This document shows positions 2,759 to 23,902 of a stretch of DNA of 23,995 bases, piece by piece. The notes beneath the pieces are model-generated. The model did not search any database. It saw nothing but the letters and a program-made list of their open reading frames with translations, and had not been told where the DNA came from. The stretch spans positions 1 to 23,995 of the IMG/VR virus record IMGVR_UViG_3300048691_000022. One strand, given 5' to 3'. The DNA comes from a virus. The first letter of the stretch is position 1, and each line of letters begins with the position of its first letter. A program made the position numbers and the translations under genes.

Positions 2759-3487
2759 TTAATTTAAATCAATGCATTTCTGAGTTTCATTTGCCAGGTC
2801 TGTTTTATCGGCCTCAGTTACAAGCACACCATCAGCCACTGTGGCCATGATAAACTCTTTTGCTGTTACCAGTGAGGCTGTCCCTAGTAGGCCCTTGATT
2901 GGGGCAGAGACAGTATTCATCTGGGCAATCTGAGTTGGTGATAATGCCTTTGGTACATTTCTAACAACCATCAAGGCAATGACTCTTTTTCCACAGTCTA
3001 TTTTCTTGATTGCCGTTTGGACGTTGGATTCTTTTTGTCCAGCCTGCGCTTTGATGACTTCCTGTGCTTGGTAATCTTGAAGTTTTTGCGTATCAAGCAT
3101 GATGGATTTGATAAATTTCTTTTCATATCCTGCTAGTTTAACACAATAAACTTGCAGCAAATCTAAATTCTTAATCTTATAGTAGTCATTTTGAGTACAT
3201 GTAAGTGCTAAGAACTTAGCAGAGCAATCAATCTCATCTGAGCATGAAAGCTCATCGGCTTTAAAGTAAGTTGGCCTTGTGTAGTCATCAACTTCTTTGT
3301 CATATTCTGAGTGGATCGAGCTTGGATAAATGCCAAGATCAAAACACTCCTCTCCTGAGACTCTTTCACAGTCATGCTTAAGTGAGAATGCCTCTATTGA
3401 TCCTGACTTAATCTTTGTGTGATTAAGCCAGTTTTCTGCATGAGCTATTTGAGTAAAAAGTAAAATTGTTAAAATTAAATATTTCAT
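2759..3487 (-). CDS. Exported cysteine-rich protein beside the fibre gene
   Basis: A 242-residue protein with a textbook signal peptide (MKYLILTILLFTQIAHA, cleavage after AHA at residue 17). The mature part has eight cysteines, an even number that suits disulfide bonds made outside the cytoplasm, and no further membrane segment. No family is recognised. It follows the 644-residue exported fibre-like protein with a 9-base gap, shares its MKYL start and an almost identical ribosome site (TAAGGGGAT), and so is probably made and exported with it. A chaperone, partner or assembly factor of the fibre is one guess; a periplasmic protein acting in lysogens is another. Confidence 0.7.
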   Translation of the reverse strand: MKYLILTILLFTQIAHAENWLNHTKIKSGSIEAFSLKHDCERVSGEECFDLGIYPSSIHSEYDKEVDDYTRPTYFKADELSCSDEIDCSAKFLALTCTQNDYYKIKNLDLLQVYCVKLAGYEKKFIKSIMLDTQKLQDYQAQEVIKAQAGQKESNVQTAIKKIDCGKRVIALMVVRNVPKALSPTQIAQMNTVSAPIKGLLGTASLVTAKEFIMATVADGVLVTEADKTDLANETQKCIDLN

Positions 3488-16890: not shown

Positions 16891-18960
16891 TTAAAGACCT
16901 GGGTTTTTAAAGATACCACGGTGGTCAATTACCTTAGCACCAACATCGTAAGAGCACTTAAGCTGTAGGCCATCAGTGTTGAATCCCTCTTTAGTTGTAA
17001 GAGTTGGACCGTCTTGACCGATAAGGTTTGCAAGTTCAAAGATATCAACTTGAGCGATTGCTGCAAGTAAGTACCATGCAGTTGAGCTGGCAGCATCTAA
17101 TCTTGGCTCAGCAATTGGCATTAACTTTCCAGAGAAAGGGTTTACCTGGTTGTTTTGGTTAGCTTGGATAACCGAAACAAATTGCTCTGCAATTGTCTCA
17201 AGTGCTGTTGGCACTAAAAGAGTTTTTGGTACAAGATTTAAAAGAGCATCATTTAGGCCCTTTTGTAGTCTCATTTTTGAGCGTCCCTCAGAGATTGATG
17301 CAATTGCAATTGCAGCTGCAGTCCCAAGGTTTCCATGAGTAGCATGGAATAATGGCACACCATCGGCCATGTTTGGATTGCTTGTGATGATTTTGTAAAT
17401 CAACTCAGACTCAAGATCTCTTGATGAGCGTCCAAACATTTCTGGAAGTCTTGAGAAAGCATCCATGTCATCGTTAACAAGAGTTTGTCTTGTAATCCCG
17501 ATGATCTTACCATAAGTTTCAACCTTATATTTTTCAGCTGCCTCACCGATTTTTCCAGTTTTGTACTCGCCATTTTCTAAAACTTTTTCAAGCTTAGGAG
17601 CATCACCTAATTGAGTACGGCTGATTTCTTTGAAGTCAGCAACCTGCACTCTTCTTGTGAATGGTGAGAATGTTTGAGGAGCTTCCTCGTATGCAGATCT
17701 AAGAGATCTATTTGCCACGTTGGCAAGAATAAGTGCAAAGTCAGATGTGCTGTGAAGTGCTCTCTCTGCAAGCTCATTTGGTGTTAGGCCACGGACATTT
17801 TGCCCTGCAGCTGTTAGGATCTCCTCAGCAAGTCTGATTAGAGACATACCACGGTATGATCTAGCATCCTCATGCAATGTAACTTTATCACTGTGAGCAC
17901 GATGCATTAATGCATTTGTTGCCATCTCAATTCTCATTTTACTTTGATCCACGTCCCTAACCTCCACATTATGGTTTTTTGTTTTTGTTTCTTTGTTTTT
18001 TTCTGAAAGATTTTCTATGATCATCTCACGGGCTTTATCAACAGTGATGTCCTCAGTAATCATTTTCTCCGCAAAGTCATCACCAAGACCTGCAGTTTTA
18101 ACAGCTGATCTGATTTCAATTCCACGTTGTTTTTCTAATTCCTTTTCATTCACTGTGACCTCTTTGTTTTCGACAGCTGCAGGTGCTGTCTTTGTTTCAG
18201 ACTGAATTGATCTTTCCTCTTTAGTTTCTGTCAGCTCTGAATTTTGTTCAACAGATTTATTCAAATCTGTTTGAGTTTCTTCTTTTACTTCTGTTTGAGG
18301 ATCTGTTTCAACATTTGTTTCTGTTGCCACAACTTCTGTTGTTTCTGTTTCAACTGGTACATCAATAGCATCTGCGACATCGGCCTCAGTCTCAACCTCT
18401 TCTGATGACCTAAGAGTGATTGATGACTCGTATCTTTCTTGTCCGGCCTCCATTGATCTAACTTGTGCATCCTTGTCGAATGGAATATTTACAAAGGAAA
18501 TCTCCATAGGCTCCCAGTCAATTGCTCTATAAGTTGGGATCTCATCACCTTTTTTTGTTATTTCTTCATATGAGTGGACAACATATCCAACAGAGATGTT
18601 TCTAATAACACCCTCTTGGATGTCTCTTACTATTCCTGCAACCTCATCTCTTGATGATAGTCTCAGTGTTGCACGTCCCTCTTTCCCTTTAATCCATGCC
18701 TTTTCAACAACACCAAGATTTGATCCAAGATCATATGATCTGTGACTATTTAAAACTGGTGCCCCTTGATTTAATCTATCAAGCTTTACATGGTCTTTTT
18801 TCATTGAAAGCTCTTCATAGAAAGCTCCAGTCCATGTGTATCTTTTTCCTTTTGCTCCCATTGACCACACAACCTCAACGGTCCTGTCCTCAACATTAAA
18901 AGTGTTTCTTTGGATAAGGGCCGACATCTGGCCTTTAGGTGTTTGAATTTTTCTACTCAT
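16891..18960 (-). CDS. Prohead protease-scaffold-major capsid fusion protein
   Basis: A 689-residue fusion. Residues 1-175 are an HK97-type (U35) prohead protease with LNSH (H73), IRNISVGY (S123) and the WEPMEISFVNIPFDKDAQVR segment (as WEPMEISFVNIP and FDKDAQVR) as active-site and family features. Residues about 185-330 are an acidic Glu/Thr/Val-rich, low-complexity stretch and coiled coil, suited to act as internal scaffold (delta domain). Residues about 335-689 are the HK97-fold major capsid region. Protease-capsid fusions of this order are a known phage family. The protease presumably cuts itself and the scaffold away after prohead assembly; no cleavage site can be fixed by eye. It overlaps the portal stop by 8 bases, with AAGGGG upstream. 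Confidence 0.9.
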   Translation of the reverse strand: MSRKIQTPKGQMSALIQRNTFNVEDRTVEVVWSMGAKGKRYTWTGAFYEELSMKKDHVKLDRLNQGAPVLNSHRSYDLGSNLGVVEKAWIKGKEGRATLRLSSRDEVAGIVRDIQEGVIRNISVGYVVHSYEEITKKGDEIPTYRAIDWEPMEISFVNIPFDKDAQVRSMEAGQERYESSITLRSSEEVETEADVADAIDVPVETETTEVVATETNVETDPQTEVKEETQTDLNKSVEQNSELTETKEERSIQSETKTAPAAVENKEVTVNEKELEKQRGIEIRSAVKTAGLGDDFAEKMITEDITVDKAREMIIENLSEKNKETKTKNHNVEVRDVDQSKMRIEMATNALMHRAHSDKVTLHEDARSYRGMSLIRLAEEILTAAGQNVRGLTPNELAERALHSTSDFALILANVANRSLRSAYEEAPQTFSPFTRRVQVADFKEISRTQLGDAPKLEKVLENGEYKTGKIGEAAEKYKVETYGKIIGITRQTLVNDDMDAFSRLPEMFGRSSRDLESELIYKIITSNPNMADGVPLFHATHGNLGTAAAIAIASISEGRSKMRLQKGLNDALLNLVPKTLLVPTALETIAEQFVSVIQANQNNQVNPFSGKLMPIAEPRLDAASSTAWYLLAAIAQVDIFELANLIGQDGPTLTTKEGFNTDGLQLKCSYDVGAKVIDHRGIFKNPGL

Positions 18961-20383
18961 TTACTGCCCCTTTTGATACTTCGTGTTTTTTTCCGTTTGC
19001 ATTTACTTTTCTTGGATCGGAGTCAAGGATCAAACCAAGCTCATCTGCTTTGTCGTTTCCGGCCTTGAGTCCTTTATATACCTCATCAGGATCTCTTCCC
19101 AGAGATGAGATCACTGCATCTCTTGAGTCAAACCCTGCTCTCACAAGTTCGTTTAATGCTGCCACTTCTTTTGAAGGATCAATCATTTCACGTCTTGGTG
19201 GTATGTGATTAAATGATGAGCCTGCCTGTGCTGGCTTACCAAGTAATGTCATCATAAATTTAAAATCACTAACAACCTCTTTTAAAAAAAGATTGAGCAT
19301 GATCGAGTCTCTCCATGCATCTATGTTGCGGCCCATTTCAAGCCATCCCATTCTTGCAGATGAAAAGTTTACTTCTGATAAGTCACCACTGAATGACTCA
19401 TATGAGATACCAACACCTGCAGAGATTGCTCTTAGTTGAGATGAAACAAATTCACGGTAGTTTTCAACTGATGGTGGTGATGCAAATGTGATTGTTTTTC
19501 CAGGTGGTAATTGTTCAATGAGTGCAGGTGTAATCCTGTTTTGCTCATTGGCCTCAAGAGTGCTGCAATCATCTGACTCTTGTGATCCATCAATGTCATG
19601 TACAAAAGCAGTAAAGCAAGCCGCCACTTTTTGTTTCATTAATTGAGCATCCTCATAATCATCAAGATCTTTGAGCCTCATCATAGATGGTGCCATCCAT
19701 GGGATACCTCTTACCTGGCCCGGCCTTTCTTGTTTGAAAAGATGGATCATTTCATTTGCTGGTATGAAGTTCGATTTAAATGTATTTTTTACTTTCTCGT
19801 AAGATCCTGGATGAGACTCATAAATGTGGTATCCAACTCTCTTACCATCTTGATCAAACTCAACACCCTGGATGACATAGTTACCCTCTTTAAAAGGTGT
19901 CTTTGTAAATGATCCATCTATAAAGTCAGACTCCAGGACCTGGTATTGAAGTGGATATTTTAATCCGGCCACAACTCTCTTTCTGATAATAACTTCACCA
20001 GACTCAACAATTGCATCCATTGCCAATCTTTGAAGTCCCTTTAAATCATTTCTTCCATCATAGTCACAAGCTGTTGTATAGGCCCACTCTTTCCAGGTGT
20101 CATCTAAGGCATCTGGCTTTACATCTGTGATGATCCCTTTTCCAACAACATTATTTGTTATGACTTCAATTATCTTGTGAGCATATGGGTTATTTCTTCT
20201 TAGGTCCCTAGATCTTTCTCTTAGGGTTGGAAGGTCACTTTTGATCTGGGCATTTGCATCCCCTCCTCCAGTTATCCATCCTCCGGCCCTCCGGCCCTTT
20301 GATGCTCCCTCATACTTTCTATCTGTCTTGTCATCTATTTTTTTCTTTTTAGATGATAAGTTAAAATCTAATGTCAGTTTCAT
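18953..20383 (-). CDS. Portal protein, lambda gpB family
   Basis: A 476-residue protein matching lambda-type portals: a basic N-terminus with GRRAGGWITGGGDANAQI (about 30-47), then RERSRDLRRNNPYAHKIIE (about 55-73), in which the R-N-N-P-x-A motif is characteristic. It continues with a YPLQYQVLESDFID segment and a VNFSSARMGWLE motif near 345. Twelve copies form the ring through which DNA enters the head. The gene follows the gpW-like gene with a one-base overlap, as in lambda (W then B). It is slightly shorter than lambda gpB (533). Confidence 0.93.
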   Translation of the reverse strand: MKLTLDFNLSSKKKKIDDKTDRKYEGASKGRRAGGWITGGGDANAQIKSDLPTLRERSRDLRRNNPYAHKIIEVITNNVVGKGIITDVKPDALDDTWKEWAYTTACDYDGRNDLKGLQRLAMDAIVESGEVIIRKRVVAGLKYPLQYQVLESDFIDGSFTKTPFKEGNYVIQGVEFDQDGKRVGYHIYESHPGSYEKVKNTFKSNFIPANEMIHLFKQERPGQVRGIPWMAPSMMRLKDLDDYEDAQLMKQKVAACFTAFVHDIDGSQESDDCSTLEANEQNRITPALIEQLPPGKTITFASPPSVENYREFVSSQLRAISAGVGISYESFSGDLSEVNFSSARMGWLEMGRNIDAWRDSIMLNLFLKEVVSDFKFMMTLLGKPAQAGSSFNHIPPRREMIDPSKEVAALNELVRAGFDSRDAVISSLGRDPDEVYKGLKAGNDKADELGLILDSDPRKVNANGKKHEVSKGAVNE

Positions 20384-20613
20384 CAGAGTCCTTTGCTATG
20401 CTCCATTACCAAACGCTTTCCACCAAACAGTCCTTTTTTAGCACATGACTTGTTTAGGCCAAGCTCACCTCTCATTAGATCTCTGGTTTGCAACATCTCT
20501 TTTAATGATCTGTATTCAACTTCCTTATCTGAGTATTTAACCCTCAAAGCACCATCTGCTATGGCAGCCTCAAGGGCGATTAGTTGCTCTGGTGTAAAGC
20601 TTGATTGAGTCAT
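20383..20613 (-). CDS. gpW-like head-tail joining protein
   Basis: A 76-residue protein with the gpW-family pattern: TPEQLIALEAAIADGALRVK (residues 7-26) and VEYRSLKEMLQTRDLM (about 32-47), equivalent to the E-x-L-x-x-A-L-x-x-G-x2-x-V then V-x-YRS-x-x-E order of lambda gpW. It binds the portal as part of head completion. It lies between large terminase and portal, exactly as W does in lambda. The ribosome site is weak (TTGGT), so translation may depend on coupling with the terminase gene four bases upstream. Confidence 0.85.
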   Translation of the reverse strand: MTQSSFTPEQLIALEAAIADGALRVKYSDKEVEYRSLKEMLQTRDLMRGELGLNKSCAKKGLFGGKRLVMEHSKGL

Positions 20614-20616
20614 TTT

Positions 20617-22581
20617 TTACCAATACCCATCATCGGCCTTAGGTTTCTTTGGCCGTTTGTTTTTTGCGTTGTTGGTTTCATTTTCCGGCCTCTTGAGATT
20701 TTTTACAACCATTATATTAGACTCTGCCTTTTTCCACTCCTCCTCTTTCCATCTATCTATCCCGATCATTGCAGCCGCTGCTCTGTTGTAAACATATAAA
20801 TCCAGAGTCTCGTTTCTGTCTCTCACCTTGTGCCACTCAATAACTGTGTGACCTTTTTTATTTTTCTTAAGCCTCCTCTCCTCAGCAACTAGCTGTGAGA
20901 AATATTCCAGATCATAATCTGGAAAGTGGATGTACCCTTTTGGATATGGTTGCGTTATGTCATCTGGTGCAGTTTTTTGCAGATCACCATAAAGCTCACC
21001 CTTGATCATGTTGATCCCAACTCTCCAAAGTTTTATCCCACGTCTTTTTGTTTTTCCTTTCTCACTAACATCCAAAGCCTTTGGCAGCGCATACATCTGA
21101 GTAAGGGCCTCATCACCTTTAATAGGCAAAACTCTCTTGGCATCAAAGCGTCTACAAAAATTATAAACTCTCTGTGTTTCATAACCAGAGTCGATGACGG
21201 CCTTTGTGATTGGCATACTGAAACCATCAACGTGCTCAAAGGTTGTGCCAAGATACTCCTCCAATTCATTCCAGGTATCATCCTCAGTAACATTGCCAAC
21301 AATGATTTTTCTTTCAACAGACCATCTCCTCCTGTCTCTGCCCCATGCATGCACCTCGGCCTCAAGTCGATCCTCTTGCACATCCACTGCACAGGTAAGA
21401 AAGATTGCACCCCTCTGCACAGTCCCGACTGGATACTGCTCACGTCTTGCAAATAGATTTTTTTCAATTGGTCTTTCACCGACATCCTCAAAAACCTCAC
21501 CAAGTACGGTGTTAACAAATGAAATCATTTTTTCTGGATCTTTAGAGTTTTTGGCATTCACATAGTCCTGGCAAATTTCTTTCCAAGACATCCACCCTAG
21601 TGGTGAGTACATTGATGAAAGCATAAATCCAGCAACTTCACTTTTAGGATTGTGCTTGATCCACTCGGCCCCATTATCACCAGAAAACATCCACGGCTTA
21701 TTGTGCTCCAGGATCTCCTCTCCACATTTTTTACAAAAGACAACTGCCCTGGTAACAATCTCACCACCAACAGCATCGGCCTCAGTCTCATAATGAAGGT
21801 GATCAAAAACAGTGAGAGGTCTTTCCCAATCCTCATGGCCTAATATTTGTTTTTCTTTGCAGTGAGGACATGGCACATAATACCATCTCTGATCAGACAG
21901 CATAAACTCTTTGTGAATTTTAGATGATCTTTTAAAAGTTGGTGTGCTCACATAGTATGCTTTACGTCTTGAGTAAGTTCTTTGTCTGGCCTCAACCAGC
22001 TTTACAGGATCTCCCTCACCCTCAACATCATCTGGCCATCTGTCGATCTCATCACCAAAAACATTCTTTGCTGGTATAGATGAAAGAGATGAGCTGGAGT
22101 TAGCACCTGATATGATCAAGGCTCCATTCTCAAAATCTTTTAAAAGTACAGTGGCCTTTGCATCTCGATTGTTTCCAGTTGATAGTTTTGTCCTGATCCT
22201 GGGAGTTGCTTGAAACATAGGATCTAATCTGATCTTTGAATTTTTCTTTGCATCTGGAAGTGTAGGCCAAACAATCATAGTCATCCCTGGATCATGATCA
22301 ACTATGTATCCAATCCAGTTAAGACCTGCAGCTGTGGCACCAACCTGGGCACCCTTTTTAAATATTACCTTTTTAACTAATGATTGGTTTGAGATCTCCC
22401 ACATGATCTCTCTTAGAAATGGAGTCCTGTCTGATCTATATGGTCCTGGCTCTGCAGAGTCTTTTGCTGAAAGTATTCTGTACTTATCGGCCCACTCCCA
22501 AACTGATAATCTTTCCTTTGGCTTTAAAGCATTTAGCAATGCCCTTTCAAAAACTTGATACGCATCTGCTAAGGCACTCAT
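20617..22581 (-). CDS. terL: Terminase large subunit, GpA family
   Basis: A 654-residue protein of the lambda GpA family. The ATPase has a variant Walker A (KKGAQVGAT, about 75-83) and Walker B/catalytic motif (VFGDEIDR, 174-181). A zinc-ribbon-like CPHC...CKKC set follows (C238, C241, C283, C286). The nuclease centre shows a conserved aspartate in TCAVDVQEDRLE (D400, aligned with lambda D401), VIDSGYE (D463) and RDRNETLDL (D594). It cuts concatemeric DNA and drives packaging into the prohead, probably at cos sites given its family. It starts inside the methyltransferase stop (ATGA). The length is near lambda's 641, and all key residues are present. Confidence 0.95.
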   Translation of the reverse strand: MSALADAYQVFERALLNALKPKERLSVWEWADKYRILSAKDSAEPGPYRSDRTPFLREIMWEISNQSLVKKVIFKKGAQVGATAAGLNWIGYIVDHDPGMTMIVWPTLPDAKKNSKIRLDPMFQATPRIRTKLSTGNNRDAKATVLLKDFENGALIISGANSSSSLSSIPAKNVFGDEIDRWPDDVEGEGDPVKLVEARQRTYSRRKAYYVSTPTFKRSSKIHKEFMLSDQRWYYVPCPHCKEKQILGHEDWERPLTVFDHLHYETEADAVGGEIVTRAVVFCKKCGEEILEHNKPWMFSGDNGAEWIKHNPKSEVAGFMLSSMYSPLGWMSWKEICQDYVNAKNSKDPEKMISFVNTVLGEVFEDVGERPIEKNLFARREQYPVGTVQRGAIFLTCAVDVQEDRLEAEVHAWGRDRRRWSVERKIIVGNVTEDDTWNELEEYLGTTFEHVDGFSMPITKAVIDSGYETQRVYNFCRRFDAKRVLPIKGDEALTQMYALPKALDVSEKGKTKRRGIKLWRVGINMIKGELYGDLQKTAPDDITQPYPKGYIHFPDYDLEYFSQLVAEERRLKKNKKGHTVIEWHKVRDRNETLDLYVYNRAAAAMIGIDRWKEEEWKKAESNIMVVKNLKRPENETNNAKNKRPKKPKADDGYW

Positions 22582-22586
22582 GGGTT
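22578..22586. repeat. Direct repeat at the methyltransferase/large terminase junction
   Basis: TCATGGGTT (AACCCATGA on the coding strand) includes the stop/start overlap and is identical to the copy at the other end of the methyltransferase gene. Here it encodes Asn-Pro-stop and the ATG of the terminase. Confidence 0.75.
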
Positions 22587-23318
22587 AATCCTCTCTTTTG
22601 CAATCTCAAAATATTTATCATCCATCTCTATACCTATAAAATTTCTATTTAGATTTTTACAGGCAACACCAGTTGATCCTGATCCCATTGTGAAATCTAA
22701 AACCGTTTCATTTTCTAATGTGTATATCTTAACCAAGTACTCTAAAAGTGCCACTGGTTTCTGCGTTGGGTGCAATCCTTTTTCAGAATTAAATCTTTGA
22801 ATAGATCTAGGAGATCTTAATCCAGTATTTTCTGTTAAGTAACCAGACATATCTGATCCAGGTCGATGAACGGATGACCTGTCTGATTTTCCTGTTTTTT
22901 GCCTGTACGGCTCTCCCTTTGTTTTCTGAGGTATATATCTAAGATTTCCTTTTTTGGAGTATGTACACGCCTTTAAACCAAAAACAGAAATTATCTCATG
23001 CACTCTGAATGGTTGTAAATTTACTGAAACAAAATTAGATCCATTTGGTTTTTCCCATATCCAATCATACTTAAACATTTTTAAATTACTCATCCTTAGC
23101 TGACTAGAAAATGGTTCACTTCCAAATAAAACAATTGCCCCTGTGTCCTTTGTAATTCTCTTTAGCTCATTCCACATTGGCTCAAACTGAATAACCACAT
23201 CCCACCTGCATGCAGTTGTCCCATACGGTGGATCAGTTAAGACCATGTCAATTGATTTATCAGGAATAGTTTTTAGAATTTCAAGGCAGTCACCTTTTAA
23301 TAGATTTAAACTGATCAT
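22578..23318 (-). CDS. DNA adenine-N6/cytosine-N4 methyltransferase (DPPY type)
   Basis: A 246-residue site-specific DNA methyltransferase with motif IV TDPPYG (DPPY at 29-32) near the N-terminus and the SAM-binding motif I FTMGSGSTG (209-217) near the C-terminus. This order belongs to the beta group (HinfI/CcrM-like). HPTQKPVALLEYL precedes motif I, as is usual. DPPY most often means N6-adenine methylation; the target sequence cannot be read from the protein. There is no restriction endonuclease beside it, so it is an orphan enzyme. It is wedged between the terminase genes and overlaps both by exactly four bases. Both junctions carry the same nine bases. It probably modifies the DNA being packaged. 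Confidence 0.9.
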   Translation of the reverse strand: MISLNLLKGDCLEILKTIPDKSIDMVLTDPPYGTTACRWDVVIQFEPMWNELKRITKDTGAIVLFGSEPFSSQLRMSNLKMFKYDWIWEKPNGSNFVSVNLQPFRVHEIISVFGLKACTYSKKGNLRYIPQKTKGEPYRQKTGKSDRSSVHRPGSDMSGYLTENTGLRSPRSIQRFNSEKGLHPTQKPVALLEYLVKIYTLENETVLDFTMGSGSTGVACKNLNRNFIGIEMDDKYFEIAKERINP

Positions 23319-23323
23319 GGGTT
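23315..23323. repeat. Direct repeat at the small terminase/methyltransferase junction
   Basis: The same nine bases as at the other methyltransferase junction, again spanning Asn-Pro-stop and the next ATG. The two copies are 737 bp apart; joining them would leave small and large terminase genes with a four-base overlap. Confidence 0.75.
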
Positions 23324-23902
23324 TACCCCTTCTAGGAATAAATAATCACCCCTGCTAAGATTGGTAAGCACGGCCCTTATCTCATCAGAAATTATCTTGT
23401 GACATTTATCAATATTGGTTTCAGCTGCCATTAGTGGAGCAAGCTTGTCTGCAAAGTTTTCTAATGTACTTCTGATGTTGGATCCAATCTCAATTGCTGC
23501 CTTTCTAACATCAGCCGTTGGTGTGAGGATCTTAACTTTCTCCTCATATTCTAGCTGGGCCGTCTTTGCTGCATAACTTTCCTTGACTGTTCTGATCTTG
23601 ATTAAAGTTGGTGCAGCTGGATCGGCCTCACTCTCCTCACTGTTTTGATCAGCTCTGGCCCTCTGTGTTTGTTTCTCATTTGGTAAGAAAGTCTTTTGCC
23701 TAAGCTCATTCTTATTATTGACAACAGTGCTCTCCTCCCAAAACTTATCGGCCTCACTAACCAGGATCAGCTTTCTATCATTTGATCCAATCTTGATGGC
23801 ATGTTTTGGTAAACGCCCCTCATTAATTGCCCTCTTAACTGCAGATAATTCGACACCTTTATGTCGAGCGTATTCTGTCTGTGTCATAGTTCTATCAACC
23901 AC
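23315..23902 (-). CDS. terS: Terminase small subunit, Nu1-like
   Basis: A 195-residue protein with an N-terminal winged helix-turn-helix (about residues 6-32: MTQTEYARHKGVELSAVKRA then INEGRLP), as in lambda Nu1. A charged linker follows (about 60-95), and a helical C-terminal half probably mediates oligomerisation and large-subunit binding. It recognises packaging sites on phage DNA. The start is GTG, chosen because TGAGGGGG lies 5 bases upstream; an in-frame ATG five codons later has no such site. It is the first gene of the late operon and ends inside the methyltransferase start codon. Family identity is supported by position and the HTH, not by strong motifs. Confidence 0.78.
   Translation of the reverse strand: MVDRTMTQTEYARHKGVELSAVKRAINEGRLPKHAIKIGSNDRKLILVSEADKFWEESTVVNNKNELRQKTFLPNEKQTQRARADQNSEESEADPAAPTLIKIRTVKESYAAKTAQLEYEEKVKILTPTADVRKAAIEIGSNIRSTLENFADKLAPLMAAETNIDKCHKIISDEIRAVLTNLSRGDYLFLEGVNP

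Follow-up and report, generated by a model that had tools for sequence, protein, structure and literature searches.

A probable orphan methyltransferase gene, likely counter-restriction cargo, between the terminase genes of a phage with a lambda-type large terminase

Introduction

In 936-type lactococcal phages, orphan beta-class DNA methyltransferases (MTases) are encoded between the genes for the small (terS) and large (terL) terminase subunits, at a site that is an insertion hotspot (Murphy et al. 2014, PMC4190342). In a survey of ninety 936-type genomes, 65.55% had at least one ORF separating terS from terL (PMC4759559). Enzymes from this group of phages have been characterized: GGWGA is the methylation target of M.Phi145I and M.Phi93I, which shield DNA against HphI; M.Phi93DAM confers protection from DpnII (PMC4190342). 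Murphy et al. also considered whether such enzymes might act in packaging, naming phage P1 as the precedent, and judged this unlikely in the 936-type phages (PMC4190342). Thus, the TerS-MTase-TerL arrangement is already published for one group of phages. Here we report this gene order from another phage lineage, extending it to phages with a lambda-type GpA terminase. The window analysed is the entire IMG/VR virus record IMGVR_UViG_3300048691_000022, which is 23,995 bases long.

Results and discussion

Reading from its right end, the minus strand of the window carries a series of packaging and head genes. TerS (23315..23902, 195 aa, phrog_57 E=4.6e-30, assigned from this match and from its sequence) is followed by the MTase (22578..23318, 246 aa), and then by a TerL of the GpA/lambda type (20617..22581, 654 aa; PF05876, PF20454, phrog_15 E=5e-222). 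Next come a head-tail joining protein in a gpW-like position (20383..20613; phrog_2545, NF047331), a lambda-family portal protein (18953..20383; PF05136 E=6e-109), and a fused head protease/major capsid protein (16891..18960; phrog_4523 E=8e-225, PF25209). The contig stops 93 nt upstream of TerS, and the cos/pac region lies outside the window.

A first-pass annotation of this DNA had proposed that a DPPY methyltransferase sits between the small and large terminase genes, and the motifs, the Pfam and PHROG matches and the gene order all bear this out. In translation, motif IV (DPPY, residues 29-32) precedes motif X (HPTQKP, near residue 183) and motif I (DFTMGSGSTG, residues 208-217), which is the order of the beta class. 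Profile searches place the protein in PF01555 (E=3.1e-35) and PHROG 67 (E=4e-78). The enzyme is 43% identical over its full length to M.Phi145I, which is itself a phrog_67 protein, so that the window gene has a tested homologue from the equivalent slot of another phage. Like the window enzyme, M.Phi145I and M.Phi93I (KM091444, KM091443) are beta-class MTases of PHROG 67 encoded between terS and terL; they are orphans, as the window enzyme probably is, and the M.Phi145I gene overlaps terS by 4 nt, as the window MTase gene does. The two loci differ in phage type and in their junctions: the M.Phi145I locus has no copy of the 9-bp repeat discussed below, and its MTase and TerL genes do not share a 4-nt overlap (the MTase ends at 1638 and TerL starts at 1650).

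Based upon these similarities, we propose that the window gene probably encodes an orphan N6-adenine methyltransferase, carried as cargo in an insertion-open slot between terS and terL, translated with the packaging genes and protecting phage DNA from restriction. An orphan beta-class PHROG 67 enzyme would have been acquired into this slot as cargo. Because the MTase ATG overlaps the terS stop and the MTase stop overlaps the terL ATG, translation of the enzyme would keep pace with that of the packaging genes. The enzyme would then methylate the phage DNA made during infection, ahead of packaging, and virions would carry resistance to some restriction enzymes into the next host. Here the m6A activity, its timing and the protection it would give are predictions from family, homology and gene order.

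Alternatively, the MTase could come from a restriction-modification or stability system, as its remnant or as a solitary half, and serve to hold a prophage in place or exclude rivals rather than to protect the phage. PADLOC models do class the enzyme with type II methyltransferases. Yet a terminase gene flanks it on either side, so that no partner nuclease could adjoin it, and it lies in a structural/packaging operon rather than in a lysogeny region. We regard this origin as extremely unlikely.

To ask how the slot behaves in other phages, we found relatives by scans with TerL and TerS alignments, and compared junctions in relatives whose TerL is 51-64% identical to that of the window; none nearer than 63-64% was found. 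A scan with a TerS alignment of the window and one relative, L092, matched the L092 contig only. The same arrangement occurs in IMG/VR contigs 3300033148_008077 and 3300033153_012373 (L253/L254), which share with the window the gene order TerS, PHROG-67 MTase, TerL, and a TerL of 63% identity. They differ in that their MTase is only 53% identical to that of the window, and in that their junctions read ..GGACTAG|ATG and ..GAGAGTAA|ATG (TAG|ATG and TAA|ATG), with no repeat. Over the aligned terS-MTase region, L253 and L254 differ only in a tandem duplication of 78 bp that spans the TerS/MTase junction of L254 (592-700) and may be real variation or an assembly error.

In a second relative, L262 (TerL 64%), the protein encoded between TerS and TerL is a ParB-type MTase of PHROG 498. 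ParB-domain MTases of this family occur in GpA-terminase phages and prophages and resemble the window enzyme in belonging to PF01555 and in lying beside the terminase, in L262 inside the slot itself; they are longer and carry an N-terminal ParB-like domain. Since the L262 enzyme belongs to PHROG 498 and not 67, the slot has housed no fewer than two kinds of MTase in the clade of the window. The L262 gene (2716-4005) is broken by an in-frame TGA near 3391, which may reflect gene decay or a sequencing error. In five further relatives, L092, L256, L257 and L258 (TerL 51-57%) and L436, TerS overlaps TerL and the slot is empty, and the MTase is therefore not conserved with this type of terminase.

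The first-pass annotation had gone further, suggesting a modular insertion by junction duplication: recombination would insert or remove the MTase, with the two 9-bp copies of AACCCATGA as both its substrate and its scar. As to the sequence itself, this description is accurate. The copies are real and lie exactly at both boundaries of the MTase gene, on the minus strand. In the upstream copy (23315-23323) the TerS stop overlaps the MTase ATG and AACCC forms the spacer 3' of an AAGGGG ribosome site; in the downstream copy (22578-22586) the MTase stop overlaps the TerL ATG and AACCC is the spacer 3' of a GAGG ribosome site. TerS (..EGVNP*) and the MTase (..ERINP*) each end in Asn-Pro-stop, exactly as described, with each TGA overlapping the following ATG. 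Joining the flanks at AACCCATGA would also leave an intact TerS-TerL ATGA overlap.

Several observations nonetheless argue against junction duplication. Comparison of relatives with and without the MTase, the check proposed along with the idea, found AACCCATGA at neither junction of L253/L254 and L262, where the slot is filled, nor at the empty junctions of L092, L256, L257, L258 and L436. This outcome had been named beforehand as one that would count as a refutation of the idea. A plain 4-nt ATGA overlap would yield an equally clean in-frame swap, making the extra AACCC unnecessary. The Asn near the end of the MTase is common in the family (Asn follows the conserved 'RI', giving RIN, in about 26 of 85 homologues); its codon is therefore the enzyme's own, and no copying from TerS is required to account for it. 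Finally, the gene and family assignments within the window place no transposase gene next to the MTase. We consider junction duplication very unlikely and reject repeat-mediated insertion as the likely mechanism, given that the repeat is missing in relatives both with and without the MTase gene. As the nearest relatives share only 63-64% identity in TerL, a recent repeat-mediated event may still have taken place in the lineage of the window.

How unusual is the repeat? The window contains four copies of AACCCATGA versus 0.31 expected, two of them on the other strand (1384 and 7081) and remote from the MTase junctions. The stop/start overlap itself, ATGA, accounts for four of the nine bases, and AACCC alone is extra, falling in the spacer between ribosome site and ATG. 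Among relatives, two of 248 same-contig pairs of ATGA-overlap junctions (0.8%) share at least 5 bases upstream of ATGA, and the same holds for 2.2% of random junction pairs drawn from contigs of similar GC. The window has four ATGA-overlap junctions, which make six pairs; with a chance of about 1% per pair, the repeat is a weak surprise at best. Thus, the repeat is real and mildly unexpected, and it is likely, though not certain, that it reflects a stop/start overlap and a short ribosome-site spacer that match by coincidence at two junctions.

What stands of the modular-insertion claim is that the MTase is acquired, removable cargo: in most GpA-terminase relatives TerS adjoins TerL with nothing between, and differing MTases occur in the slot in neighbouring phages. 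Insertion by way of the 9-bp repeat is the part not supported, because relatives lack it. The MTase gene has a lower GC content than its neighbours (34.8%, versus 42.0% and 41.8%); this is weak evidence because another small gene of the window is just as low (34.7%), and we take low GC as suggestive rather than as proof of acquisition.

Among MTases of unrelated phages, identity to the window enzyme reaches 65%, against 53% for the MTase of L253; these levels hint at separate acquisitions of the window and L253 enzymes. Phylogenies lean the same way. In a 93-row MTase tree the L253 enzyme sits beside that of L033 (91/80) and the window enzyme falls in a polytomy, and in a 35-row tree L253 lies inside an 11-row group (96/87) with the window outside that group; a clade test did not reject the window and L253 enzymes as sisters (p-AU 0.75 and 0.56).

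The position of the MTase between the terminase genes had also been read as a sign that methylation is coupled to packaging. The MTase could, for example, mark cos/pac and thereby restrict terminase cleavage to methylated (or to unmethylated) DNA, as Dam does in P1. In the P1 Dam/pac system (cited in PMC4190342), adenine methylation has a known link to packaging; the window enzyme shares with it a predicted m6A activity, while the methylated cleavage site is a feature of P1. Modification genes do recur beside terminase genes. Two MTase families do so within the clade of the window alone, and we surveyed this more widely in loci that have a GpA-type TerL and in which a TerS is detectable, 263 of them distinct. 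In 243 of these, TerS and TerL are at most 150 nt apart. An MTase is found upstream of TerS in 101 loci, between TerS and TerL in five (the window included) and nowhere near in 157. MTases of ParB-type size in other GpA-terminase loci are mostly upstream of TerS, unlike the window enzyme. In a distant GpA-terminase lineage (L005:596-3468, and L006), TerL is preceded by TerS, a pair of small ORFs and a ParB-type methyltransferase.

PHROG-67 MTases of other phages also often adjoin terminase genes, with TerL types unrelated to that of the window: their downstream neighbour matches phrog_2 (terminase large subunit) in 13 of 53 loci and Pfam Terminase_6N in 9 of 53, and terminase genes are also present among their upstream neighbours. 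These loci were chosen by similarity to the window enzyme, and the proportions are not a census.

Genes that may act in other kinds of DNA modification fill the TerS-TerL slot elsewhere. QueD/6-pyruvoyl-tetrahydropterin-synthase-like genes belong to 7-deazaguanine pathways, which serve DNA modification in some phages. We found a PTPS/QueD-like gene in the slot at three loci (L442:2964-4048, by Pfam, and L443:1510-2594 and L445:5546-6630, by the same signature), and a PAPS-reductase-like gene at another (L295). One could imagine that the slot preferentially takes DNA-modification genes, including several MTase families as well as the QueD-like and PAPS-reductase-like genes, through a coupling of modification to packaging in which, for instance, only modified DNA is packaged. 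We think such a preference improbable.

Against a packaging role for the window MTase, the slot is shared by cargo that has nothing to do with modification: a PIN-domain toxin with a Phd/YefM antitoxin (L211:2733-3394, by Pfam, and L250:2564-3225, by likeness), a C92 peptidase (L369) and a DDE transposase (L119). A ParB protein occupies it in L296. Moreover, close relatives that share this type of terminase carry no MTase in the slot, so that packaging there needs none in this position, and Murphy et al. oppose a regulatory role in the 936-type phages (PMC4190342). A marking function of this kind thus seems unlikely to us; nothing in the data calls for a role in packaging, and several near relatives have no MTase in the slot. 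The counter-restriction cargo that we favor and a packaging role could be separated within a single small clade, since its members have the slot empty, or filled by a PHROG-67 MTase, or filled by a ParB-type MTase.

We also searched for the target motif of the MTase through palindrome bias, and within the window detected no clear single-site avoidance save that of CpG-containing words, which fits general CpG depletion. Across the window (1-23995) the observed/expected ratio of CpG is 0.30, a strong depletion, with an excess of TpG (1.43) and CpA (1.31). The ratio is similar in L092, L253, L256, L257 and L258 (0.17-0.31), L262 is less depleted (0.62), and a Silvanigrella phage (L086) has no CpG depletion (1.13). 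Cytosine methylation followed by deamination in the host would fit the depletion pattern.
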